Shown here: positions 22,350-37,943 of the stretch, in pieces
Layout: every line of letters begins with the position of its first letter
Position numbering within the stretch: the stretch's first letter is position 1
From: Prevotella communis
Lineage (GTDB): Bacteria > Bacteroidota > Bacteroidia > Bacteroidales > Bacteroidaceae
Assembly: GCF_022024115.1 (NCBI RefSeq)
Contig: NZ_CP091792.1
Location: 2,852,001 to 2,916,000, forward strand
Direction of reading: 5' to 3'
DNA: 64,000 nucleotides
The notes under the pieces: model-generated
What the model was told of the DNA's origin: nothing
The model's input: only the letters and a program-made list of their open reading frames with translations
The model's database searches: none
Made by a program: the position numbers and the translations under genes

Positions 22350-22784
22350 TTATTGCGCTGATTGTTCTTGTTCTTTCAACCACAATTCTATCCAGTCTTT
22401 GATAGTCTGGATAAACAGTTTAGCATCTGGCATCAATTCGTCAACGGTTTCTATACTATGATTAAAGAAATCGTCATAATCACCAGTGGAACGCTTTGAA
22501 AACAGACGACTGAAATACCTTCCTAGTTCTGGAGTAAGGATACCTTCTTGAACAATAAACTTTCCCAGATTCATTCGTACGCCGTCATGTGACTTTACCT
22601 CAATACCATTAGCTATTAATATGGCTGTTGCAGCATAATAGCAAGCATAATATAACCTATTTACTGCAGTATTATAAAAGCCATTGGCTCGATGGGTCTC
22701 CACCTCTGCCAATGTATTTTCTGCACTTTCAATACGATAGCGTACAATACTTATTCTCTGCTCTTGGGTTAACGTTTTGTTCAT
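22350..22784 (-). CDS. HEPN domain protein of a HEPN-MNT pair
   Basis: A 144-residue helical protein. RANGFYNTAVNRLYYACYYAATAIL (about residues 32-56) is the conserved HEPN helix. SHDGVRMNLGKF and the RSTGDYDDFF segment near residue 97 complete the family pattern. HEPN proteins in such pairs are toxins, often RNases, or targets of adenylylation by the partner. The gene overlaps the upstream nucleotidyltransferase gene by 4 bp, the standard layout of HEPN-MNT toxin-antitoxin modules. Confidence 0.82.
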   Translation of the reverse strand: MNKTLTQEQRISIVRYRIESAENTLAEVETHRANGFYNTAVNRLYYACYYAATAILIANGIEVKSHDGVRMNLGKFIVQEGILTPELGRYFSRLFSKRSTGDYDDFFNHSIETVDELMPDAKLFIQTIKDWIELWLKEQEQSAQ

Positions 22785-23089
22785 AGAACCACTCCTTCGT
22801 TTTCCACGTTGATATAGAAAGGACTGACATTAGCGCCCCATTGGGATTTTGGTATAATTAGCGGATTGATAATAACGCCAGACTGCAATTCCAACTGATA
22901 AAGAGGTGCGAAAATGGCATCCTCATCTTTCCCTGTCACAGTTGGCTGATCTACCAAAATCAACAAATCTATATCTGAATCAGGACGAGCATCACCTCTG
23001 GCTTCACTACCGTAAAGCCTTGCTTCCATTTTGTAAGGAACGCTTTTCAGAGCCTCCTTTATGGAATTGGTGATTTCCGTTCGTCTCAT
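22781..23089 (-). CDS. MNT-type minimal nucleotidyltransferase, antitoxin partner
   Basis: A 102-residue protein with the polymerase-beta-type motif LYGSEARGDARPDSDIDLLIL (Gly-Ser, then the Asp-x-Asp metal ligands). The ATG at 23089 was chosen: 59 further in-frame codons upstream lie across a perfect promoter (23098-23129) and have no family similarity. By family it adenylylates or otherwise neutralises the HEPN toxin encoded 4 bp into its 3' end. Confidence 0.85.
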   Translation of the reverse strand: MRRTEITNSIKEALKSVPYKMEARLYGSEARGDARPDSDIDLLILVDQPTVTGKDEDAIFAPLYQLELQSGVIINPLIIPKSQWGANVSPFYINVENEGVVL

Positions 23090-23097
23090 ATCTGTTG

Positions 23098-23129
23098 CAA
23101 AGATAGAAAAAAAAACAATAGTCTCCAAA
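23098..23129 (-). promoter_or_regulatory. Promoter of the MNT-HEPN operon
   Basis: Leftward TTTG (23129-23126), 20-base spacer, TATCTTTG (23105-23098), 9 bp upstream of the ATG. This implies a very short leader. Confidence 0.7.
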
Positions 23130-23338
23130 TATTTCAATAAAAAATCCCATAATGACGACCCACTTATGCTATACGCAAGATCGAGTCCACACACCCTATG
23201 ACTATATATTTTATCGCTTTCTACACCAACTGGCATGGATAGCAAAATTCTCGCTATGCTCGCCAAGCGCCCTCTTACATCTTCCCTCTTACATCTCCCG
23301 CCATCAGCCCTCAGACATCAGACCTCTTCCCTCGCTTT

Positions 23339-26065: not shown

Positions 26066-29000
26066 TTATGCCGAAATAGAAATGACCTGATGGATTTCCT
26101 TGACGAAATCCTTTAGACTGACAAAATTATCGCCAAAGGTAACTCGCCAGTTGAATGCCTTTAACGGATACTCCAGGAAGTTCTTCACCTCGATATCGCC
26201 ATTTACGCTGACATAGTCGAGAATATTCTTAAGATATCTTTCTTGGTCTGAAGTCAGGTTATTGTCGTTGATAAACTTCTGATATATCAGGAGGGCCTTC
26301 TTTCTGTCTATGCCATTGACAACACGAATGAATGCAGCCACATTTGTTTTATATGGATGCCCCTCTGCCAGTTCGTCAAACTCTTCACGACTGCCAAGTT
26401 CCTCAAAGAAGACTCGCTCCAGTTCTTTGAAGTCCTCTGCTGTCAACTGCTCAAACTGCTGTATCTTCTGAAGTGTAGGATTACCTGTGTTCTGGGCCAG
26501 ATAATCTACCACTCTCTGCTTGTAAGAAGTACGGATAACAGTATCTTCTCCTCCCTCTACTGTTACGTATGGGTCTTCAATGTCAATAATAAACTTCTCT
26601 TTCTTCCTAGTACCTTCCAGCAGCTTTATCAGGTCTCTCAGTTCTGTCCTGACTCTTTCAAGACTGTCTAGGCTTTCATTCGCCCAGAATTGTGGTTGCT
26701 GAACCAGTCGTATTGTGTCTATACGCTTCATCACAGCAGGTATTGAGCCCTTCTTTTCCAGATGGGCAGCAACATTTACTACAACCTGCCTAAACTGTCC
26801 CACACGAACTGTAGAGTCGATATGAGCCAACTGAAGATGAAGCATGATGACATCAAATTTCTTTGCCGATTCATCATCGTCATCTTGTGGTATCAGCTTC
26901 CCTATTTCCTTCAGGCGCAACACATCTACCTCTGAGATATAAGTCCATTTATCCTTGTCTCGGAAGGGCTCTATGATGTTCCAATATGGGCGAGCATCCT
27001 TGCGCTCTTTCACAATGCCGTTTACCTGTTGATACAAAAGCACCTTCAGGTCATCATGCATCTTCTTGTCAAAAGCCTTCTCCTGATGCTCAGCACTCTG
27101 CAGTTCCTTTGCGATATCCAGTCGCAGAGAGAAGAGTCTTTCTGTCAAAGACTTGCTGTTTGAAGCATCTATGCCATCAGGTTTCTTTGAGAAATAATCA
27201 AAGTTGCCGCACCAGTCAAAGATATAGAAGCATTCTTTGTCCTTACCCTCTCCGAAGATGTCAGGACAAAGGCGAGTACCCCGACCTATCATCTGCTCAA
27301 ACTTTATCTTTGACTTCACAATCTTGAAGAAGACCAGATTCAATACTTCTGGCACATCAATGCCTGTGTCGAGCATATCCACGCTGACAGCTATCTGAGG
27401 CATGCTTTCCGCAACCTTGAATTTTGCTATCAGCTTATCATGGTACTTCACCTGATTGTCTATCAACTGACAATAGTCTGCTCCACGATTAGGGAATAGT
27501 GCGTGGAAGCGTTCTACTATTCTTTCAGCATGCTTGTGATTATAGGCAAAGATAATCATCTTTCCTATATCTTCGCCACTCTTAATCTTCAAGCCGTTTT
27601 CCATCAGCTCTGACAATACATTGTCTATAGTATCATCATTGATGAGGTAACGGAATATCTCGTTTCCTTCAATATCTCGATGGTATTCCGCATTGGGGTC
27701 AATGCCCTTCAGCATCTTCTCGTAATCCCAAACCTTTTCCAGTTCCTCACGCTGTTCAGGAGTCAGTTCGTCATACTTGATGCCTTTGTTTATCATCTTC
27801 GAGTAATGACGCTTTGCCTTGTAAGACACAAGGTATCCGTCATCTACTGCCTCGTCAAAGGTATACTCAAAGTTGGGTTCATTCTCCAGCTCCAGCAATC
27901 TGAAGGTATTCTTGTCTATCTCGTCGCGAGGTGTTGCTGTCAGACCTATCAACAACGAATCGAAGTATTGGAAGATGGCTCCATACTTTCCAAATACAGA
28001 TCTGTGGGCCTCATCTATGATAATCAGGTCAAAATGTCCCACGCTGAACTTCACATCATACTCATTGATGTAGTTGATCATCGTCTGGTAGGTGGAGAAT
28101 ATGAACCGGGCGTCCAAGTCTGGCTCATCATCGTCTGATAATGACGCCATCGACTCACTGGGCAACAGTTTTTCAAAGTTACCCCTTGCCTGACTGACCA
28201 ATTCTGTTCTGTCAGCAAGGAACAACACATTCTTTATCCAGTCGTTATTCGCCAGCAGCTTGCATAGCGAGATGCTCACTCGTGTTTTTCCTGTACCAGT
28301 AGCCAGCACTAGCAATCCACGACGATGCTTCATGTTGAGCCATTCCACCAGACTCTTGATGGCTGTCTTCTGATAAGGTCTGTCAGTAATCGTCTCGTCT
28401 ATGGTCAAGTCCTTGATGCCAGCCCTGCCACGTTTCTGCATGATATATTCCAGGTCGTCATGACTATGGAATGATATGACATCCCTGTCAGGATATCCCA
28501 AGCCGTCAATAACCTTTGTCACATAACCATTGGTATAGTAGATGACAGGTCGGACACCATATTTCTTTTCCAAACATTCAGCATACAGTATTGCCTGCGC
28601 TCTGCCTTTTCCTGCATTCTGTATGGTACTCTTTGCTTCTATGACTGCCAAAGGCTTACCACCCCTGCTAAACAGTACATAGTCGCAATAGCCCTTACCG
28701 CTTGGCGTTGGCATGCCTTCCACCTCTACCTCAATGCAGGCCTTTCCACCTTGTATGTCGCCCTTGACAGTCAGGATATCCCACTTTGCTTCATTCAGCA
28801 TATAGTCTATGAGACATCTTCTTGTGACAGCCTCGCTGGCAAGCGACTCCTTAGGTGTTTCTACAGGCTTGACAGGGTTTTCTATCACCTCCTTGGGAAC
28901 ACTGTCAACAACCTCTTGCGACACTTGTGGCTCAGGAGTAGTTAACACCTGCATTCCAGGCAGCACTTGCGGCACCAGGGTAGCATCAAAGGCTACCATG

Positions 29001-29407
29001 TTCTTGATTGCCTTCCAACGATACAGGAAGCCCTCCACCACATAGAAAAGGGACCTCAAGCAGATAAAGGCATCATTCTTCTTGATTTCTTGTGTTCCTG
29101 TATGAGAAGCATAGTTACCAAACTTCTTGACGGTATAGATGTTCTTCTGAAACTCCCAGTCATAGTTGACGAAGGCATCCATCTCTGGATGCTTCAGCAT
29201 ATCGTTAAGTGTTTCCTGTTTCTCCACCTTTGCTGATGCCATAGCGAGATGGTGCTTCACCAGCCATTCCAATGCCTTGCGGGCATTAGTTGCAGACTCT
29301 TCAGGAAAAGAGTTCTGAAATATTTCAGCCTTATCGCAATACGCATGCAGTTTGCTGAAGCTCGGAATCTTATCAGCCAAAAGTTGGATAAAGTCGAAAT
29401 TCTTCAT
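26066..29407 (-). CDS. hsdR: Type I restriction enzyme, R subunit
   Basis: A 1113-residue translocating endonuclease subunit. Residues about 35-135 form a DUF4145-like helical domain (FGNYASHTG, SH at 101-102). A PD-(D/E)XK nuclease follows (D242, and E257-A-K259 in AVIEAKST), then a superfamily 2 helicase with ATGTGKT (P-loop 371-375), IIDEAHRS (465-468), TATPRDE and GRGTR. It cuts unmodified DNA after ATP-driven translocation when joined with HsdM and HsdS. It is the last gene of the island and its stop codon abuts dispersed repeat C. All motifs appear intact. Confidence 0.95.
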   Translation of the reverse strand: MKNFDFIQLLADKIPSFSKLHAYCDKAEIFQNSFPEESATNARKALEWLVKHHLAMASAKVEKQETLNDMLKHPEMDAFVNYDWEFQKNIYTVKKFGNYASHTGTQEIKKNDAFICLRSLFYVVEGFLYRWKAIKNMVAFDATLVPQVLPGMQVLTTPEPQVSQEVVDSVPKEVIENPVKPVETPKESLASEAVTRRCLIDYMLNEAKWDILTVKGDIQGGKACIEVEVEGMPTPSGKGYCDYVLFSRGGKPLAVIEAKSTIQNAGKGRAQAILYAECLEKKYGVRPVIYYTNGYVTKVIDGLGYPDRDVISFHSHDDLEYIMQKRGRAGIKDLTIDETITDRPYQKTAIKSLVEWLNMKHRRGLLVLATGTGKTRVSISLCKLLANNDWIKNVLFLADRTELVSQARGNFEKLLPSESMASLSDDDEPDLDARFIFSTYQTMINYINEYDVKFSVGHFDLIIIDEAHRSVFGKYGAIFQYFDSLLIGLTATPRDEIDKNTFRLLELENEPNFEYTFDEAVDDGYLVSYKAKRHYSKMINKGIKYDELTPEQREELEKVWDYEKMLKGIDPNAEYHRDIEGNEIFRYLINDDTIDNVLSELMENGLKIKSGEDIGKMIIFAYNHKHAERIVERFHALFPNRGADYCQLIDNQVKYHDKLIAKFKVAESMPQIAVSVDMLDTGIDVPEVLNLVFFKIVKSKIKFEQMIGRGTRLCPDIFGEGKDKECFYIFDWCGNFDYFSKKPDGIDASNSKSLTERLFSLRLDIAKELQSAEHQEKAFDKKMHDDLKVLLYQQVNGIVKERKDARPYWNIIEPFRDKDKWTYISEVDVLRLKEIGKLIPQDDDDESAKKFDVIMLHLQLAHIDSTVRVGQFRQVVVNVAAHLEKKGSIPAVMKRIDTIRLVQQPQFWANESLDSLERVRTELRDLIKLLEGTRKKEKFIIDIEDPYVTVEGGEDTVIRTSYKQRVVDYLAQNTGNPTLQKIQQFEQLTAEDFKELERVFFEELGSREEFDELAEGHPYKTNVAAFIRVVNGIDRKKALLIYQKFINDNNLTSDQERYLKNILDYVSVNGDIEVKNFLEYPLKAFNWRVTFGDNFVSLKDFVKEIHQVISISA

Positions 29408-29443: not shown

Positions 29444-30616
29444 TTAGTCAAACCAATACTGCATTCTTGATGCGAGCAATGTTTCCAGGTCTTTTATCGT
29501 AGAACTGACTTGCGCTTTCTGCTGCTCAATCAACTCAATTCTCTTTGCAAATTCTTGCTGAAGAGAGAGAGGGGGAAGAGGAATACCTAATGATGCTATT
29601 GTTGTTGAATTAAGATTAAGCATCGTAGCTCCTTTTGCCTTTGAAATAAGTTCCTTTATAAAAGAACTTGATCGAATAATATACATAATATACTGTGGAA
29701 TCACTTCCTGCTCAAATCTAACAAACAAGCTGCCTGTTCCACACAGATATCCATTCTCTTTGTCAGAGATAACAGCACATCTACCAATATCTCCCCTTCT
29801 TGCAAATATGACATCATTCTTTCGAAGAATATAAGCATTTAGCTCTCTGGCTTTTTCATCCGAAATTGTGAAATCCATATCAGCAATTACACGATAATCT
29901 TTTATATGAATAGGATTAACCAAAGGAATACCATTTGAAATATAGTCCTCTTTATGTAACATTGAGCCAAATGGACCAGTCTTTACGGAAGATATTTCCC
30001 CCAACTTCTTTACTTCCCATCCTTTTTCGTTTTCAATGGGGTCACCAAACATATCATAGAATATGCTTTGAGCAAGACTGTCGAGGTCACTCAACTGAGC
30101 CTTCTTCAGGCTTATCAGCTCGTTAATCTTGTCAAGTTCCGCAACAATGGATAGTTGGTTTTCTATTGGAGCAACAGGAATAGGGATAGACATTAGGGAT
30201 GATTTTACCAAATGTTTGATTGTAACTCCCTTTCCATATCGCCCATCAAGAATACCACTTTTCTTTAGATGCATGAAAAAGTACAGACAAAAACGTGCTG
30301 CTACGCCGTCTGTGAATCTGACACGATGGAGAGCATTCTGATATTGTATTGAATAGTCTTTGTCCCATATGGCAGCACGTCCTATTTCACCGCCTTCACA
30401 GATGAGGAGATCTCCTTTCCTAACAGTATATCGTTCTAATTCAGACTCCTCAAATCTTGTTTGCTTTAAAGTCGTGAAATCTATCTTGTCCCAAAGTATA
30501 TTTATCGCACAAAGATATGGACGCATTTCTCCTGTGTCTTTTGAAGAATTCAAAGTCTTTCCGAGGTCACTTTCGCAAACCTCTCCTAGTTTCTTATATG
30601 TCCACCCTTCTCTCAT
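29444..30616 (-). CDS. hsdS: Type I restriction enzyme, specificity subunit
   Basis: A 390-residue protein with two target-recognition domains, each followed by a conserved helix: SIPIPVAPIENQLSIVAELD near residue 150 and GIPLPPLSLQQEFAKRIELI near residue 350. The first half starts GWTYKKLGEVCESD, the second GWEVKKLGEISSVKTG, the usual internal duplication. It sets the DNA sequence recognised by the methylase and restriction complexes. It overlaps hsdM by 4 bp. The recognition sequence cannot be read from the protein. Confidence 0.93.
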   Translation of the reverse strand: MREGWTYKKLGEVCESDLGKTLNSSKDTGEMRPYLCAINILWDKIDFTTLKQTRFEESELERYTVRKGDLLICEGGEIGRAAIWDKDYSIQYQNALHRVRFTDGVAARFCLYFFMHLKKSGILDGRYGKGVTIKHLVKSSLMSIPIPVAPIENQLSIVAELDKINELISLKKAQLSDLDSLAQSIFYDMFGDPIENEKGWEVKKLGEISSVKTGPFGSMLHKEDYISNGIPLVNPIHIKDYRVIADMDFTISDEKARELNAYILRKNDVIFARRGDIGRCAVISDKENGYLCGTGSLFVRFEQEVIPQYIMYIIRSSSFIKELISKAKGATMLNLNSTTIASLGIPLPPLSLQQEFAKRIELIEQQKAQVSSTIKDLETLLASRMQYWFD

Positions 30617-32133
30617 ACGACCTTCTCCAACATCTTATACAGTTCGCTATATCCCTTCAGATATTCTCCTTCTGTCTTTTCAAGACGTGTAAGGATGTCT
30701 GCAACGGGTTCATACTCTACCTTCTCCCTCTCTATCTCCTTGTATTTGTTGATAGAAAGGTCGTAGTTGTTCTGGCGAATCTCTTCAACAGGAACAAAGA
30801 AGCTCTGCTCCTTGCGACTGCGAGATTCTTCCGCCTTCAGATTATGGTAGCGAGCTACAACATCAGGAATATCGTTCTCGCTGATAGGGCTTCGCTTGTC
30901 GTCAAGACTGAAGCCATCGGCCTTCATATCATAGAACCACACCTTGTCAGTACCACCACTGTTCGTCTTTGAGAAGACAAGAACAGCAGTACTTACTCCA
31001 GCGTAAGGCTTGAAGACGCCACTTGGCATAGAGATGACAGCCTTCAGTTGCTGATTATCTACAATCTCCTTACGAATGGCTATATGGGCCTTGCTGGTGC
31101 CAAACAATACGCCATCAGGAACAATGCTGGCACAACGGCCACCAACCTCCAAAGAGCGCACAAACTGAGCAAGGAACAAGAGCTCTGTCTTGCTGGTATT
31201 GGCGTATGCTAGAATCTTCTTGTTTACATTGCCCTTGTCCAGACTGCCTGCAAAAGGAGGATTTGCCATGATGAGCGTATAGCAACTCTGATCATCATTC
31301 TGTTCTGACAACGAGTCGCGCCATGCAAGTTCTGGAGCAGTAATGTCATGAAGCAGCAGGTTCATGGCACCTATGCGAAGCATCGTCTGATCTGTATCGT
31401 AACCATTGATCATGGATGTCTTCATGTGGTGAACTTCGTCTGCTGCATACATGGCCGTACCATAATTCTCCTTGATATACTTGACTGCCTCAACAAGGAA
31501 TCCAGCACTACCCATTGCAGGGTCGCAGATATAGTCTTTGGGGGTTGGCTCCATCATTTCCACAATCATGCGGATGATGTGGCGAGGAGTACGGAACTGG
31601 CCATTAGTGCCAGATGCTGCCATCTTGCCAAGAATGTATTCATATACATCGCCCATAGCATCACGATTGTTCATGTCGAGGGCATCCACACCATCAACAA
31701 CCTTTGTAAGGGTGCGAGCATTGGGGATAAGGAATATGGCAGACTTCATATAGCGACTGTAGGCACTTTCCTCACCTGTTCCGATATGCTTGATAAACTC
31801 AAACACACTTTGGCGAACAATCTTGAACATGTTGTCAGAACCAAAGTTCTTAAACACATGCCAGCGAAGATTCTCGTATGGAACACCCTTCTTCTCTTCA
31901 TCAGAAACAGCCTCAGGATTCACCCATAGCTGCCCGTCAAGGAATGTGGGATTCTGGATTTCCACACCCCAGTCGCGAGCATTCTCCTCTTCCTGCAGCT
32001 GCTTGTCATCGAGCAGTTTCATGAAGAAGATATAGGTCATCTGCTCCAATACTGTGATGGGATTAGTAATACCTGCCACAAAGAAGGTATCCCAAATCTG
32101 GTCAATCTTATTCTTTATCTCGCCTGTAATCAT
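30613..32133 (-). CDS. hsdM: Type I restriction enzyme, DNA methyltransferase subunit
   Basis: A 506-residue N6-adenine methyltransferase: helical HsdM N-domain (1 to about 150), SAM motif I ICDPAMGSAGF (204-211 core) and catalytic motif IV NPPF (291-294), both intact. KYKEI near the end joins the specificity subunit. It has its own consensus promoter at 32167-32198, preceded by the leader element shared with the kinase gene. The degenerate methyltransferase region of the kinase at 33215-35848 can be aligned to this protein almost throughout. Confidence 0.95.
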   Translation of the reverse strand: MITGEIKNKIDQIWDTFFVAGITNPITVLEQMTYIFFMKLLDDKQLQEEENARDWGVEIQNPTFLDGQLWVNPEAVSDEEKKGVPYENLRWHVFKNFGSDNMFKIVRQSVFEFIKHIGTGEESAYSRYMKSAIFLIPNARTLTKVVDGVDALDMNNRDAMGDVYEYILGKMAASGTNGQFRTPRHIIRMIVEMMEPTPKDYICDPAMGSAGFLVEAVKYIKENYGTAMYAADEVHHMKTSMINGYDTDQTMLRIGAMNLLLHDITAPELAWRDSLSEQNDDQSCYTLIMANPPFAGSLDKGNVNKKILAYANTSKTELLFLAQFVRSLEVGGRCASIVPDGVLFGTSKAHIAIRKEIVDNQQLKAVISMPSGVFKPYAGVSTAVLVFSKTNSGGTDKVWFYDMKADGFSLDDKRSPISENDIPDVVARYHNLKAEESRSRKEQSFFVPVEEIRQNNYDLSINKYKEIEREKVEYEPVADILTRLEKTEGEYLKGYSELYKMLEKVV

Positions 32134-32166: not shown

Positions 32167-32198
32167 CAAAAATATAAATAATTCACTTATTATGCAAA
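32167..32198 (-). promoter_or_regulatory. Promoter of hsdM
   Basis: Leftward TTTG (32198-32195), 20-base spacer, TATTTTTG (32174-32167). The spacer contains TAAGTGAAT (32189-32181), close to the TAAGTGAGT motif found at two other sites in the island. Confidence 0.7.
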
Positions 32199-32292: not shown

Positions 32293-33222
32293 TTATTGTA
32301 TATTCTTCTTGTATTTTCTTTCTTCGACCTTCTTTTCGTAGTTGTACTTAGCAACATCTATTGCTTTTCTTACCATTTCAGGATCATCAATGACATTCAA
32401 TACTTTACCCCAACATAACACATTGAGCATTTCATATATAAGAGCTCGTATTAAATAGGGAGCCTTACCACTTGCAACGTCAGAATCAATTTTCGTTCGA
32501 TGTGAACCAGGATTGGTAACATCTACTAATGAGTGAATACCTCTTTGAATATGAACAGGAATAATATCTTCCATATATCTTTGTCCAAGTGCATAGCTGC
32601 AAGCTGCGAGATTTGAACCATCATGCTTTACAGAACAAAAACCACGATCATACAGTTTGTTCATAACATCGCTCATAATCTTACGAATGTCATTCAAAAC
32701 GGAGTTGTTCTGCCAATCTTCTTTTTCTAAAACTTTCAGTATGCGTAGAAGGTCATGTTTTGACTCTGGCCAAGCGTCAAAGACGGTTTGATGCTTATGG
32801 ACAATTTGAGTATCTTCCTGTTGGTCGGCAGCGGAGATAATGTCTGCTATCAGTTGATCGTCATCATCACCCTTTGAATAATACTTGTCAACCATATTCT
32901 CAAACATCTCATTTGAAATCAAATCAGGTTGACCAGTAAAGACAAACATAGGAACATAGCGGCGAGGCTTTAATTCGTTAATACGATCACGACAATAACG
33001 CAAACCACTCAGGTTAGGCACCTCATTAAGAGATTCCATAAGAACTTTTGCATCAAGAACAACGGCAGACCATTCTTCAAGATGGCTTTCAAATGTTATC
33101 ATGCCCTCTTTTGCAAAGCGACATTTGGTTATCTCAAAACCATTAACCACCTCACAACGTTCCATCAACTCACTAAGGAGTTCATACTGATCGTCAATCC
33201 AAAGTATTTTATATTTATTCAT
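32293..33222 (-). CDS. Response regulator with unusual helical output domain, partner of the methyltransferase-kinase
   Basis: A 309-residue protein. Residues 1-125 are a receiver domain with every key residue: acidic pair D10-D11 in ILWIDDQ, phosphoacceptor D57 in VVLDAKV, T96 in FVFTGQP and K117 in YYSKGDD. The remaining about 170 residues carry no helix-turn-helix I can recognise. They are helical, and NPGSHRT (SH at 240-241) with the following LIRALIYEMLNVLCWGK resembles the DUF4145-like domain at the HsdR N-terminus. The start overlaps the kinase gene by 8 bp, so both are made together. Output may be protein-protein contact rather than transcription. Confidence 0.75.
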   Translation of the reverse strand: MNKYKILWIDDQYELLSELMERCEVVNGFEITKCRFAKEGMITFESHLEEWSAVVLDAKVLMESLNEVPNLSGLRYCRDRINELKPRRYVPMFVFTGQPDLISNEMFENMVDKYYSKGDDDDQLIADIISAADQQEDTQIVHKHQTVFDAWPESKHDLLRILKVLEKEDWQNNSVLNDIRKIMSDVMNKLYDRGFCSVKHDGSNLAACSYALGQRYMEDIIPVHIQRGIHSLVDVTNPGSHRTKIDSDVASGKAPYLIRALIYEMLNVLCWGKVLNVIDDPEMVRKAIDVAKYNYEKKVEERKYKKNIQ

Positions 33223-35848
33223 GAGAGTTATATTTAGGGAACATTACTCGTATTGTAGTAGTTTTCTGCGTTCTATTACAGAAAACATCATAATCACCTT
33301 TATAATGACGAGTTATTGATTTAACACGATAACCACCAAGACCTGTGCCATGAGACTTGGCACCTTTCTCGCCTTTAAGCCCATAACGGAACTTGTCCAT
33401 GCCTTGCGGCATAGGATTGCCATCATTCTTGAAGTCTATGGTGAAAACATCCTTGTTTGCATTGTAAGACAAAGTAATCAGAACTTTATATTCTACACCT
33501 TCACCTGTGAATGCATGAGTGACAGCATTCTCTATAATGGTAGTTGCCAAAGTAGAGAAATCTACCTTACTAATAAAGATTTCTGGAGTATCAATCTTTG
33601 CCTCTTTGAGGGCGACCATATCAACCTCCAATGCAACAGAATAGTTGGAGAATGTACCTGTCAATTCATTAAGTATTTCTAACGGATTCATGACTTCTGG
33701 TGAACCATAGATATCCTCTTCAGTAAGGCGATTAAGATGAAGACGCAGTTCAGACACAGCATTTGAGATACCTGTCAGTTTCTGGCGTATTGAAGATACT
33801 AGTTCATTATTCCCCTCAATTTTATCCAAATAGAAGGTTATTAACTTTGCCTGACTATCAAGCTGAGAAAGGAATGGCTTCATGTCATGCTTACGCATAC
33901 GAACCTCCATCATATACTCCTGCTTCATGGAGTCGATAGCTTTGTCCAATCCCTCTTTCCTTGCTTTTTCAACGGCAGCGTTTAACTTTGCATCCTCATA
34001 GATACGTCTCTGTTCCTCAAGAGAAAGAGGTATAAGAAGAACAGGGTCAATGCCTTTGCCACCTGACCAGCGCTTAATGCCATTCCGTCTCAGTTCTCCA
34101 TTTGACTCTTTATCAATCTGAGCAAGAAGAAGCCTTAAGTAATTTACATCTATCAAATCAGGATTGATTCGATATGCAGCACAGCTTTTAGGGACAGATA
34201 CGTTCCTAAACAAATCAAAATTAGTCACAAACTCATGGTAATAAGTCTTCAGCTCCTTCTCACCATATTGTACGACAAAGGGGGAACCTTTATACACGTC
34301 ATAAATATCAGCATCTTCTTCTGCATCATCCTCCTTGTCTTCATGGTTAATTAGTGATAAGAAACGCTTACCTAATTTGGGATTCTGTTCATATTCCTCA
34401 AACGGATTAGAAGCAAGGTATTCTTCTCTGACAATATATCCAGAGTGTAACATCATACCGTCTTCTTCCATAGGCTCTAGAATTTCGCTAAGCATTTCTT
34501 TACGATAGCCAGCAGGAACCTGCGTTACAGAGTCCATATAGTTAGGAACGTACCACTCGTATTCTCTCTCCTTGACATCGTTTACAGGAACCTCATTGAT
34601 ATACATTTTGTCAATCTTATCAATAACCTCTTTAACCTTATCGATATCTATGGTATCTTTCTCTTCATCCTGTAACTCTTCATATTCATCTTTGTCTTTG
34701 ACAAACGAAGACAAATCCACAAATGTAATAGGGTCACCCTGTTTACGTCCTGTCTTTAAGTAGATTATTGTGGCTGCAATACTGGTTTTATTAAACACAT
34801 TTGCAGGTAAAAGGACAACAGTATCAAGCAAATTAGCTTCTGTTATATCATGACGAAGTTTTGCTGTCTTACCATTTGAAGTAAGGGCACTTGCAGGCAA
34901 CAATAAGATAGCTCTACGATTTTCAACATTCATAGAACCAAGAACTTTCTCCAAAGAAAAAGAACTAATAGATTCTGTTTCACCATTAGAAGTAACTACC
35001 TCTTGATCAAATTCCGGAGTTACAATGATGAAATCACAATCTGTGGCATCCCAACTACTAACGCAATCTGCATATTCTATATGCTCGGTATCAAATCCCA
35101 TTACTCCTGCCCACAACATAGTTGCATACATATAGTACTTGTTAGTAGCTTGAGCATGATATTTGCCTCTTGCATAGAACAAGTTTAACCCTGTACGCAT
35201 AAAAGGATCGTAAACATCTTGCGCCTCATCTTCCATAACCATTGCAATAATATCATCTACTTCTGTAGGGATCTGCAATGATGAAGTCCAGTGATCATCA
35301 ACGAAAGCGAAAAGCATAAGTCGACGAAGACATGAAATATAAAACTCCTCTTTCACACAGTATTTCAGGAATACTACAGAGTTTATCACATTCACATCCT
35401 CCTTACAACTATTGCGAAGATACGCTATCATTCTCTTGCAAAGCCTTCCGATATTTGAATTTGGGAAGTTAAATACAAGAGAGATTTTTGTATATTTCTC
35501 ATTTCCCTTCTCATCGAAAAGAACAGGAACAGGTATTTTCTTGTTATTCGGGCGATCGCCATATGTTATCTCGTCCTCATCTGGTTCAATCCAAGATGTT
35601 TTTATGCATTCTTCACGACTTGCTGTAAACATGGCACAGCCAACTTTCTCATCATTATTAAGAATGATACTAATTGCACCAGCTTTCTGTAAATAGACAA
35701 GAGATCCACTAATAAGGTCGTTTAAATAATCTACATCCTTATCTTCCGGCAACTTTTCAATGCCATTTTTTTCAATCTCATTTATAATAAAATCCATGAG
35801 ATTTGCATAACGCCAAAGCATCTCGTCTTTTGTCAAGTCCTGTATCAT
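33215..35848 (-). CDS. Histidine kinase fused to degenerate type I methyltransferase and specificity-like region
   Basis: An 877-residue protein. Residues about 1-400 follow HsdM: motif I is DPFMRTG (214-220, against DPAMGSAG in HsdM) and motif IV is TPEF (277-280, against NPPF), so methylation is probably lost. RRAILLLPASALTS and VVLLPANVFNKTSIAATIIY align with the HsdM tail. Residues about 460-625 resemble an HsdS target-recognition half, ending LLIPLSLEEQRRI. A coiled coil follows, then a phosphoacceptor box RKHDMKPFL (H654) and an ATPase domain with ENAVTHAF (N774), KNDGNPMP and HGTGLGGYRVK. It probably senses DNA or its methylation state and phosphorylates the regulator encoded 8 bp into its 3' end. 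Confidence 0.8.
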   Translation of the reverse strand: MIQDLTKDEMLWRYANLMDFIINEIEKNGIEKLPEDKDVDYLNDLISGSLVYLQKAGAISIILNNDEKVGCAMFTASREECIKTSWIEPDEDEITYGDRPNNKKIPVPVLFDEKGNEKYTKISLVFNFPNSNIGRLCKRMIAYLRNSCKEDVNVINSVVFLKYCVKEEFYISCLRRLMLFAFVDDHWTSSLQIPTEVDDIIAMVMEDEAQDVYDPFMRTGLNLFYARGKYHAQATNKYYMYATMLWAGVMGFDTEHIEYADCVSSWDATDCDFIIVTPEFDQEVVTSNGETESISSFSLEKVLGSMNVENRRAILLLPASALTSNGKTAKLRHDITEANLLDTVVLLPANVFNKTSIAATIIYLKTGRKQGDPITFVDLSSFVKDKDEYEELQDEEKDTIDIDKVKEVIDKIDKMYINEVPVNDVKEREYEWYVPNYMDSVTQVPAGYRKEMLSEILEPMEEDGMMLHSGYIVREEYLASNPFEEYEQNPKLGKRFLSLINHEDKEDDAEEDADIYDVYKGSPFVVQYGEKELKTYYHEFVTNFDLFRNVSVPKSCAAYRINPDLIDVNYLRLLLAQIDKESNGELRRNGIKRWSGGKGIDPVLLIPLSLEEQRRIYEDAKLNAAVEKARKEGLDKAIDSMKQEYMMEVRMRKHDMKPFLSQLDSQAKLITFYLDKIEGNNELVSSIRQKLTGISNAVSELRLHLNRLTEEDIYGSPEVMNPLEILNELTGTFSNYSVALEVDMVALKEAKIDTPEIFISKVDFSTLATTIIENAVTHAFTGEGVEYKVLITLSYNANKDVFTIDFKNDGNPMPQGMDKFRYGLKGEKGAKSHGTGLGGYRVKSITRHYKGDYDVFCNRTQKTTTIRVMFPKYNSHE

Positions 35849-35917: not shown

Positions 35918-36946
35918 TCATTGATCAGAATTGTTTTCTCCAGATACCGCAATTGATTCTTGTATTTCCTGAAGTTTCTTTTGTAATAGGGCTTTATCAG
36001 GTAAGCACAACTGATACTCTGCTACCATTGTAGGTGACAAACTACGACTCAAAGCGTATTCCACCACAGCGTCATCCTTGTCTTTGCAGAGCAGTACGCC
36101 TATGCTGGGATTCTCCTTGGGCTTTCTCACATCTCTATCAAGAGCCTCCAAATAGAAATTCAATTGACCTAAATGCTCTGGTTTGAATTTCTCCATCTTC
36201 AACTCAAAAGCAACGAGGCATTGCAATTCACGATGATAGAACAACAAATCTATTCTAAAATCACTATTTCCAACCTGTAATCGATATTCCTCATCAATGA
36301 AAAGGAAGTCTTTTCCAAATTCCAGGACAAAGTCCTTCATCTGTTTCACCAGTGCCGCTTTCAAATCGTTCTCGTATTTATACTCTTTTCCGCCAATAAA
36401 CTCCAATACATATTGGTCTCGGAATATCTGTTCCGCATTGGGTGCAATTTCTCTCACCAGTGGTGAGAGTTTTAGAGTTCCAACTTTAGATCTTTCATAA
36501 AGTGCACTATCTATCTGTCGATTTAATTCTCGTTTTGTCCATCGTTCATGAACACATTGCTCCAAATAAAAACATCTCTCTTCGGTTGATTTGGTACGGC
36601 TTAAAATAGTAAGATTATTAGTCCAACTAATTTGTCTCACCAATGGTGAGAGTATTTCGTCTGCACCATTATAAGTCTCATAGAACTGCTTCATTCGCCA
36701 AAGGTTCTTATCAGAAAAGCCTTTAGATTCTGGGCTGGTTCTTTCGATATATTCAGCCAATTGCTTGACTATGCCATCACCCCATTCTGAAGCAGCAATC
36801 TTATTGGAGATGTATTTACCAATCTTCCAATACAAATCTATCAGAGAAGCATTAGCCAATCTCACCACTTCATTACGAGTATGCTGAATCATGGCGACGA
36901 TTTCTGCGAATTGGTCGTTTCTATTTTGCACTGTTATATTATTCAT
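35918..36946 (-). CDS. YhcG-type (DUF1016) PD-(D/E)XK nuclease family protein
   Basis: A 342-residue protein. The N-terminal helical domain (residues 10-165, SLIDLYWKIGKYISNKI, KGFSDKNLWRMKQFY) and the C-terminal nuclease domain are those of DUF1016. Catalytic residues are visible as D233 (SDFRIDLLFY) and E248-L-K250 (LVAFELKME). Such proteins are common next to type I restriction genes; their role is not settled. Two palindromes CTCACCAnTGGTGAG (36453-36467 and 36636-36650) lie inside the gene and each encodes LSPLVR. It overlaps the WYL gene by 8 bp. Confidence 0.88.
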   Translation of the reverse strand: MNNITVQNRNDQFAEIVAMIQHTRNEVVRLANASLIDLYWKIGKYISNKIAASEWGDGIVKQLAEYIERTSPESKGFSDKNLWRMKQFYETYNGADEILSPLVRQISWTNNLTILSRTKSTEERCFYLEQCVHERWTKRELNRQIDSALYERSKVGTLKLSPLVREIAPNAEQIFRDQYVLEFIGGKEYKYENDLKAALVKQMKDFVLEFGKDFLFIDEEYRLQVGNSDFRIDLLFYHRELQCLVAFELKMEKFKPEHLGQLNFYLEALDRDVRKPKENPSIGVLLCKDKDDAVVEYALSRSLSPTMVAEYQLCLPDKALLQKKLQEIQESIAVSGENNSDQ

Positions 36947-37943
36947 CTTTATCTTTTGAATATAGTTGATTCATTACCTTTATTTTCTCCGCTATCCTAT
37001 CCCTGAAACTGGCTGGAGCAATGACCTTCATGTCATCACCAAAGGAGAGTATCAGGGATTCCAGCTCTTTGTTTACCCTGACATTGATGGATATGATGGC
37101 ATAGCCTTCTGCCTCCTCGATGATGCGCTGAGAGAGGTGAAGGGGCTTGGTGCGAATATAGTTAAAACGCTTGCCTGTCACTTTAATAACTATATCCTCT
37201 GCATCAACGTCGGGAACTGTCACTCCTATGACATCATCGAAGTACTCTGAGAAATCCACATTTGACTCCTTGTACGGTAAAGCTATCTCTTCAAAACCTT
37301 CAACCCTGTCAAGGGCATAATGAGCATAAGACTGATAGCCTATCGCTTGGGCAATAAGATACCAACGGTCATTGAATTGTTTCAGATGATAGGGATAGAT
37401 ATTAACTATCTGCGTTTCTTTTCCGTAAGGTGTGTATTTTAGTTTCAACACTCTTTTGGTGAGGATTGCCTGCAAAAGGTCTGAAAAATACGAGATACCT
37501 TTCAAGTCAGGATTTGACTGGAAGGTAACTACGGGCGATGTGTCTTCGTCAAACAATCCGCCTTCTATCTGCATCAGGAGCGTCCTTGCCCAATCGTATG
37601 TGGGTTCACCCTCAAAATGATCCAATACGCGAATTGCATCCTGAAGCTTGTGGCGCTCCTCATCGTTAATGCGGAAAAGGGGTATTGAATAGTTCGTATC
37701 AACATACCGATATAGGCGTTTCTTGCCAAGACGTAGCTTCTCGTTAAGTATTATGCCGTAATCAGCCTCCAGGATATTAATATCATTCTGGACAGTACGC
37801 TTAGATACATCTGGCTTATCAGCTCTGCGTAATGCCTCATTACACTCATCAACCAAATCGTCAATGGTGTATTCCCTATATTTGTTTCTGAAGCACTTGT
37901 TCAGAACCTGATATCTCAACAAAACTTGTTTATCTACTGGCAT
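36939..37943 (-). CDS. WYL-domain transcriptional regulator
   Basis: A 334-residue protein: winged helix-turn-helix (residues 1-70, with VSKRTVQNDINILEADYGI as recognition region), WYL domain (about 140-240, with NDRWYLIAQA and the ligand-facing HYALDRVEGFEE), and a C-terminal WCX-like extension (about 250-334). WYL proteins of the BrxR/CapW type repress phage-defence operons and respond to nucleic-acid or nucleotide ligands. As the first gene of the island it probably controls the whole set. TAACTTTG lies upstream as a -7 box without a clear -33 box. Confidence 0.88.
   Translation of the reverse strand: MPVDKQVLLRYQVLNKCFRNKYREYTIDDLVDECNEALRRADKPDVSKRTVQNDINILEADYGIILNEKLRLGKKRLYRYVDTNYSIPLFRINDEERHKLQDAIRVLDHFEGEPTYDWARTLLMQIEGGLFDEDTSPVVTFQSNPDLKGISYFSDLLQAILTKRVLKLKYTPYGKETQIVNIYPYHLKQFNDRWYLIAQAIGYQSYAHYALDRVEGFEEIALPYKESNVDFSEYFDDVIGVTVPDVDAEDIVIKVTGKRFNYIRTKPLHLSQRIIEEAEGYAIISINVRVNKELESLILSFGDDMKVIAPASFRDRIAEKIKVMNQLYSKDKDE

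Follow-up and report, generated by a model that had tools for sequence, protein, structure and literature searches.

A kinase with a retired methyltransferase-like module and its receiver-HEPN partner: a putative two-component defence pair in Prevotella communis

What would a histidine kinase be doing with the remains of a DNA methyltransferase, next door to a type I restriction-modification (R-M) locus? The question is raised by two adjoining genes in a 64,000-nucleotide stretch of Prevotella communis (NZ_CP091792.1, positions 2,852,001 to 2,916,000, from a genome assembled as one contig of 3.57 Mb). This whole stretch is called the window, and coordinates are those of the window unless another locus is named. 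Both genes lie on the - strand, as open reading frames (ORFs) where a first-pass annotation, made from the letters alone, had placed them: a sensor kinase gene (33215..35848, 877 aa), encoding a pseudo-HsdM, a half-HsdS-like tail and a histidine kinase, and a partner gene (32293..33222, 309 aa), encoding a receiver domain and a HEPN/DUF4145-like domain. The annotation saw in the pair a dead DNA-recognition module that drives phosphotransfer to a regulator within a restriction locus and thereby reports target sites or their methylation. Of this interpretation, the dead methyltransferase and the restriction link stand and the phosphotransfer is suggested, while the regulator is not supported and the reporting of methylation at the system's own sites is disfavoured. 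That R-M parts have here been made into a two-component module for defence signalling, in which a HEPN-like effector is fired via a phosphorelay, we judge slightly more probable than its negation.

The methyltransferase-like region extends from about residue 136 to residue 440 of the kinase (34529..35443, - strand), as delimited by Pfam, by a profile comparison with HsdM and by motif tables. Pfam recognizes N6_Mtase at residues 310-440 of the window protein (5.5e-18) and in 38 of 46 relatives scanned singly (E up to 1; best 8.3e-23). When a profile was built from the 46 relatives, its positions 136-419 aligned with HsdM chains of known structure (3lkd, 2.9e-20), and a profile-profile comparison of the methyltransferase part with HsdM gives 99.3%, bearing out a resemblance first seen by eye. 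In the places where HsdM has motif I (DPAMGSAG) and motif IV (NPPF), the window kinase has degenerate forms, DPFMRTG (214-220) and TPEF (277-280), respectively. Motif patterns devised for this analysis detect motif I in none of 41 kinases but in 12 of 13 HsdM proteins; motif IV stands at its expected position in a single kinase of the 41 and in all 13 HsdM proteins. (These 41 kinases are the proteins with both methyltransferase-like and kinase matches, not the set of 41 loci considered below.) Three other matches in the kinase family, each NPPY, fall outside the motif IV position. The sequences thus support the earlier view of a catalytically dead module. An active N6 DNA methyltransferase is ruled out by the family-wide lack of catalytic motifs I and IV. 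A chance resemblance is ruled out by the profile matches and the many full-length relatives (119 of the 120 matches listed, from 222 in total, are other proteins, at 80-89% identity), and a pseudogene is ruled out by open frames and conserved active-site residues.

Next comes a single segment resembling a target-recognition domain (TRD) of HsdS, with a connecting helix (about residues 441-640; 33929..34528, - strand; IPLSLEEQRRI lies within it). It is the weakest portion of the domain assignment. By hhalign, the TRD-like part matches HsdS over its last ~87 columns (82.7%, E 9.6e-6). The tail is similar to both HsdS repeats, the second being a weaker alternative match (55.2%). As controls, five other parts of the two proteins reached at most 3.1% against HsdS, and the TRD-like part reached at most 0.1% against three other alignments. 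The HsdS alignment consisted of ten rows, two of which, from L013 and L019, are one identical protein. Pfam gives no match to this segment in the window kinase and finds Methylase_S in just 1 of 46 relatives (0.0056), and the HsdS-like segment claimed in the first-pass annotation is supported by the profile comparison but not by Pfam. The two-TRD architecture of HsdS is absent from the kinase: about 160 residues separate the methyltransferase part from the connecting helix, and there is therefore space for one TRD.

The helix that follows IPLSLEEQRRI runs directly into the region of H654, the phospho-acceptor. Here the DHp and catalytic (HATPase_c) domains take up about residues 641-877 (33218..33928, - strand), with N774 and GTGLGG. 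DHp was assigned by position and by the conserved H box. Pfam places HATPase_c at residues 769-872 (7.4e-6), where its 26.8 bits just pass the cut-off of 26.4; the domain appears in all 46 relatives scanned singly (E up to 1; best 1.2e-13). The 46-relative profile also matches the ATPase domains of the kinases YycG (4.4e-6) and VanS (5.5e-6). The boxes RKHDM, NAVTH, NDGNP and GTGLGG are all present in the window kinase, and the core first described (H654, N774, HGTGLGG) is there. Among 29 close kinases, mean identity is 0.975 in DHp, 0.915 in the catalytic domain and 0.823 and 0.832 in the two halves of the methyltransferase region; the TRD-like part (0.760) and the N-terminus (0.774) are the most variable.

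The partner opens with a receiver domain (about residues 1-125; 32848..33222, - strand) in which D10, D11, D57 (the phospho-acceptor), T96 and K117 are all present, as had been read at the outset. A fold comparison, which covered only residues 2-139, matched receiver domains. The remainder is a helical domain like HEPN/DUF4145 (about residues 140-284; 32371..32805, - strand), with R180 and H241 invariant. Pfam matches DUF4145 weakly in 10 of 55 partner relatives (best 0.0038), and hhalign matches the domain with the DUF4145-like N-termini of three HsdR proteins (35.7%, E 3.9e-4). Pfam finds no DNA-binding domain in the window partner or its relatives, and no ATPase in the pair besides the kinase domain. 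A partner with such a domain does not fit the usual meaning of a regulator, the role first supposed for it. The partner of L014 (8544-9800) and similar proteins carry some 70 extra C-terminal residues past about position 330, beta-rich by eye, a segment that the window partner does not have.

Natural variants bear on how kinase, receiver and HEPN domain are coupled. D11 and D57 are kept by all 48 receivers that adjoin a kinase, position 10 is always acidic (D or E) and position 96 always T or S; K117 is present in 39. In four loci with no kinase domain adjacent (L092, L094, L112 and L114), every receiver has Asn in place of D10 and D11; three have Asn and one has Ser in place of D57, and K117 is replaced by Leu in three and unaligned in the fourth. 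On a tree of the HEPN domain these four fall within a clade with kinase-bearing loci. In three of them, a short gene (313-375 aa) comes before the receiver gene and has a weak match to the methyltransferase profile (8e-6 to 1e-6); two of these short genes were put to Pfam and gave no match, and the neighbour at L094 has no match. Because the kinase domain and the acceptor aspartates are missing together, phosphotransfer from kinase to partner is suggested, which is as far as that claim of the first-pass annotation can be carried. The receivers of L097 and L098 keep the residues, and their upstream side lies off the contig. In L089 and L090, a methyltransferase-like part (N6_Mtase 1.6e-8 and 1.9e-6) is joined to HEPN in one protein, without kinase or receiver. 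This fusion family comprises 28 database clusters of about 500 aa, at 49-100% identity, matching over 92-99%. Taken together, the kinase-less receivers and the direct fusions suggest that the sensor acts through the HEPN domain and that the phosphorelay connects the two.

Other variants were seen. In L088 (7259-10474), a type III-A CRISPR operon encloses a HATPase protein (763 aa; Pfam 0.0026, below cut-off) and a receiver-HEPN protein. The two are flanked by csm5 on one side and, on the other, by a TM1812-family gene with a cas6-like gene after it; the partner of this locus forms a long branch on the HEPN-domain tree. Tandem kinase/receiver-HEPN pairs occur in L018, L035, L016 and L107, and in the last two the second kinase (~440 aa) has no methyltransferase-like match. 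In L033 (8174-11121), the kinase gene is broken into two ORFs and the partner is still open.

Where is the pair found? Among congeners by name (Prevotella and Segatella), the partner occurs in 31 of 299 genomes, the window's own included and some by the HEPN part alone. It occurs in 13 of 395 genomes drawn across the phylum, three of them receiver-only, which leaves 10, again with the window's own. When genome contigs were scanned with two peptide patterns, the loci retrieved were 18 from Bacteroidota, plus a Leclercia kinase that matches across the ATPase part only. For the counts that follow, 41 loci with kinase and receiver-HEPN were used, some in stretches that stop at contig edges, after seven duplicates (L013, L014, L015, L095, L096, L100 and L101) were removed. 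L033 is included despite its split kinase; outside the set are L097 and L098 (kinase side off contig), L017 and L093 (receiver, no HEPN match), the loci with no recognized kinase (L089-L092, L094, L112 and L114) and the plasmid locus L115. A WYL gene lies within five genes in 33 of the 41 loci, hsdM is the next gene in 12 (in 6 of these, no more than 11 nt from the partner), and some hsd gene lies within five genes in 13. Six of the nine loci from the phylum-wide draw (window's own excluded) have hsdM next (L080, L081, L082, L084, L086 and L087), so that the link to restriction loci first noted in the window recurs in distant Bacteroidota. N6_Mtase has 100 matches in 24 congeneric genomes, about four per genome, and with 2,500-3,000 genes assumed, chance adjacency should be well under 1% in the genus. 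Some other genomes have many more matches; G075, of the same order, has 41.

The interval between WYL gene and kinase is occupied in relatives by YhcG, DUF4268, an AAA ATPase with RloB, DUF3800, other genes or nothing. In L031, an AbiEi/AbiEii toxin-antitoxin pair (878-2339) lies upstream of a WYL-AAA-RloB-kinase-partner cassette. A copy is also carried by the Myroides plasmid pFM-G13 (typed mobilizable), in the order WYL, kinase, partner, class I DNA methyltransferase, hsdS, hypothetical, PLD-like and hsdR, with an 8-nt overlap with hsdM. There the kinase is annotated as 'N-6 DNA methylase' and the partner as 'hypothetical protein', and the kinase, receiver and HEPN profiles match.

Does the kinase keep company with a particular R-M specificity? 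The window kinase is 84.5% identical to that of L018, where no hsd gene is recognized, and 82.8% identical to that of L019, whose HsdM and HsdS are 25.9% and 20.3% identical to those of the window. L109 presents the opposite case: its HsdM (98.4%) and HsdR (95.8%) are close to those of the window, its HsdS is 44.9% identical, and its kinase is only 23.2% identical. In these few loci the kinase does not follow its neighbour's specificity, and a generic trigger is therefore more likely. With kinase lineages and hsd sets shuffled, a sensor of the locus's own HsdS specificity is disfavoured, and with it the idea that the kinase reports methylation of the local system's own sites.

How might such a pair work? 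The sensor would consist of a dead HsdM and one HsdS-like half, whose HsdS-type helix would continue into the dimerization helices of the histidine kinase. A kinase dimer would then unite two pseudo-M and two target-recognition halves, much as in the M2S core of type I methyltransferases. Two half-specificities, when paired, are on record as reading a bipartite palindrome, GAAY N5 RTTC from 2[GAAY] (PMC3874165). Closure on DNA, or on a DNA-like ligand, may shift the helices and bring about autophosphorylation at H654, and the phosphate would move from there to D57 of the partner. The phosphorylated receiver would release or assemble the HEPN-like domain as a toxic or antiviral effector, perhaps an RNase, perhaps one that arrests translation or the cell in another way. 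Control of cassette expression would fall to the WYL regulator. WYL repressors are said, in the title of one reference, to sense single-stranded DNA.

Several points weigh against this reading. The identification of HEPN depends on weak profile matches. Its motif His is present in 89 of 89 aligned rows bearing a letter, and the RNase motif R-x4-6-H is nevertheless not found, as the Arg position is mainly T, G, A or C in the aligned relatives; on this account RNase activity appears doubtful. The TRD assignment depends on ~87 columns, and the motif patterns devised here show changes in the H or G2 box of several divergent kinases. The one kinase with motif IV in place, that of L086 (10408-13152), has NPPW at 310 and is possibly an intermediate. 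According to the HEPN-domain tree, the loss of kinase and acceptor aspartates represents one or two events, not four independent ones, and L091 (6312-9313) retains D57 with no histidine kinase recognized next door, its receiver-HEPN gene being preceded by a TIR-VWA gene. No hsd gene is recognized within five genes in 28 of the 41 loci, and the sensor therefore cannot depend on a linked R-M system. Plasmid carriage amounts to one plasmid type (3 of 72,556 records, all from Myroides odoratimimus, with identical length and coordinates), and no relatives were found in viral contigs (101 stretches returned) or phage records.

Other explanations must be considered. Perhaps the pseudo-M/S module serves as a decoy for DNA-mimicking anti-restriction proteins of phages (Ocr or ArdA type), and binding of the mimic, not of DNA, activates the kinase and HEPN, making the pair a two-component counterpart of PrrC beside EcoprrI. 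PrrC is kept silent by the type I enzyme to which it is linked, and an anti-restriction factor of a phage switches it on (PMC2610378), and HEPN domains joined to R-M systems have been proposed to work like PrrC (PMC3710099). A guard of this kind is favoured by the 12 loci with hsdM next, by the intact motif IV of all 13 HsdM proteins examined and by the exchange of kinases and hsd sets, expected under a generic trigger. It sits poorly with the 28 loci without a recognized hsd gene nearby and with the failure of Pfam to find a PrrC-type ABC ATPase in the pair; we consider it rather unlikely, though a real contender. Then there is the model of the first-pass annotation, that the kinase reports target sites or methylation and so controls the linked R-M system. 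hsdMSR adjoins the pair in the window, and gaps before hsdM are short in several relatives, but the partner has no DNA-binding domain found, kinase lineage and hsd type are shuffled, hsdM has a promoter match of its own in the window, and those same 28 loci offer no recognized system to control. This model seems quite improbable.

Alternatively, the HEPN-like domain may be a non-catalytic docking or dimerization element, through which the pair directs some other nuclease encoded in the cassette (YhcG, DUF4268 or HsdR). The missing active-site Arg would be accounted for, nuclease-type genes are common, though varying, neighbours, and the window HsdR also bears a DUF4145-like domain. However, only 3 of 8 listed HsdR N-termini are DUF4145-like (by eye; L013 and L019 are one locus), the L089/L090 fusion family retains HEPN with the sensor alone, and in L020, L023, L024 and L027 no nuclease gene is recognized beside WYL, kinase and partner (their unlabelled neighbours were not all identified). 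Docking is to our minds unlikely. Least probable of all is an ordinary housekeeping two-component system, its input domain incidentally derived from HsdM and its role unrelated to defence. Many Prevotella-type loci have the pair in the same setting, with a PIF1-like helicase lying downstream of it, which might be taken in this sense, but the presence in just 31 of 299 congeneric genomes is patchy, and the tandem copies, defence-type neighbours, plasmid copy and related pair within a type III-A CRISPR operon point elsewhere.

The gene order in the window, on the - strand, is WYL, YhcG, kinase, partner, hsdM, hsdS, hsdR. The WYL-domain regulator (36939..37943; Pfam WYL, WCX) heads the locus, and a YhcG/DUF1016 nuclease of the PDDEXK type (35918..36946; Pfam; PADLOC PDC-S02) is the variable cargo between it and the kinase. 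By Pfam and the motif table, hsdM (30613..32133) has its motifs intact; hsdS (29444..30616) matches Pfam Methylase_S in two stretches; and hsdR (26066..29407) has the N-terminal DUF4145-like domain (Pfam 1.6e-4, slightly below cut-off). Kinase and partner overlap by 8 nt, WYL and YhcG by 8 nt, and hsdM and hsdS by 4 nt. Between partner and hsdM, the gap of 159 nt contains a match to the Bacteroidetes-type promoter, TTTG-N20-TATTTTTG (32167..32198, - strand). The match precedes the start of hsdM by 33 nt, so a separate transcript of hsdMSR is probable here, and the 'same operon' of the earlier description comes down to adjacency. The pattern TTTG-N18-22-TANNTTTG has 18 matches across the window against 1.1 expected. 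Scans for sigma-70 promoters (34 matches against 30.9 expected) and terminators (11 against 8.2) were uninformative, and Rfam gave no match at gathering score over 20000-45000. Downstream of the locus lies a HepT/MntA-like pair (22350-23266), a HEPN gene (Pfam HEPN 4.6e-17) with a nucleotidyltransferase-domain gene (NTP_transf_2 9.2e-10).

How does the pair compare with known systems? In keeping with the first-pass annotation, the same architecture was not found in the literature searched, whose coverage leaves out preprints and most subscription papers. Detocs (DtcA-DtcB-DtcC) also uses a histidine kinase and a response regulator in phage defence (PMC11728103). It differs in its third, 'buffer' protein, DtcB, none being recognized at the window locus, for which no DtcB profile was searched; in the window, the neighbours are WYL, YhcG and hsdMSR, and the partner has no PADLOC match (the library's Detocs content was not checked). 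DtcA reportedly has TPR-type repeats rather than a methyltransferase/TRD module, and the output domain of our pair is HEPN-like. CapK/CapS resembles the pair in that a GHKL-type kinase and a partner head immune operons, but the predicted target of CapK is a serine of a STAS-wHTH protein, and the system is described with neither a receiver nor a methyltransferase-like domain (PMC13373217). PorX has a PglZ domain where our partner has HEPN (PMC12839542). No histidine kinase is associated with Cam2, a REC-domain protein of type III CRISPR described in PMC11229360. HATPase and REC are among the domains in the legend of a figure on predicted defence systems, and that figure may depict a related kinase-receiver system (PMC13092281).

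Other likenesses lie on the R-M side. The HsdM2S1 core shares with the kinase a methyltransferase-like region, a TRD-like segment and a helical connector, whereas the kinase has lost the catalytic motifs, has one TRD-like half and is fused to a histidine kinase domain. PrrC/EcoprrI and RloC tie a tRNase effector to a type I R-M locus (PMC2610378), with HEPN linked to R-M (PMC3710099). PrrC, however, combines an ABC ATPase with a tRNase and is held silent by the R-M enzyme, and ours is a kinase-receiver relay with a pseudo-M/S sensor; no ABC ATPase fused to HEPN is found in the pair by Pfam. In the DUF4145-HsdR fusions, too, HEPN/DUF4145 is joined to R-M nuclease-helicase proteins, and R-M-associated HEPN domains are described as fused to nucleases, helicases and ATPases, not to methylases (PMC3710099). 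Here, in contrast, a dead methylase is fused directly to HEPN (L089, L090) or apparently coupled to it by a phosphorelay. If this is true, recognition of DNA (or a DNA mimic) is tied to phosphorelay through a dead methyltransferase and specificity half, and a two-component layer has been added to type I restriction loci; the natural variants, in which kinase and acceptor are jointly gone or sensor and effector are fused, offer clean tests. It is plausible, though we would put it somewhat short of even, that these loci represent a distinct class of immune signalling, in which a retired methyltransferase and specificity half serve as the soluble kinase input, sensing invading DNA or anti-restriction proteins, and a HEPN effector is fired by phosphorelay, the same receiver-HEPN output being used by other sensors, including one in a type III-A CRISPR locus, and fused directly to the sensor in one lineage.

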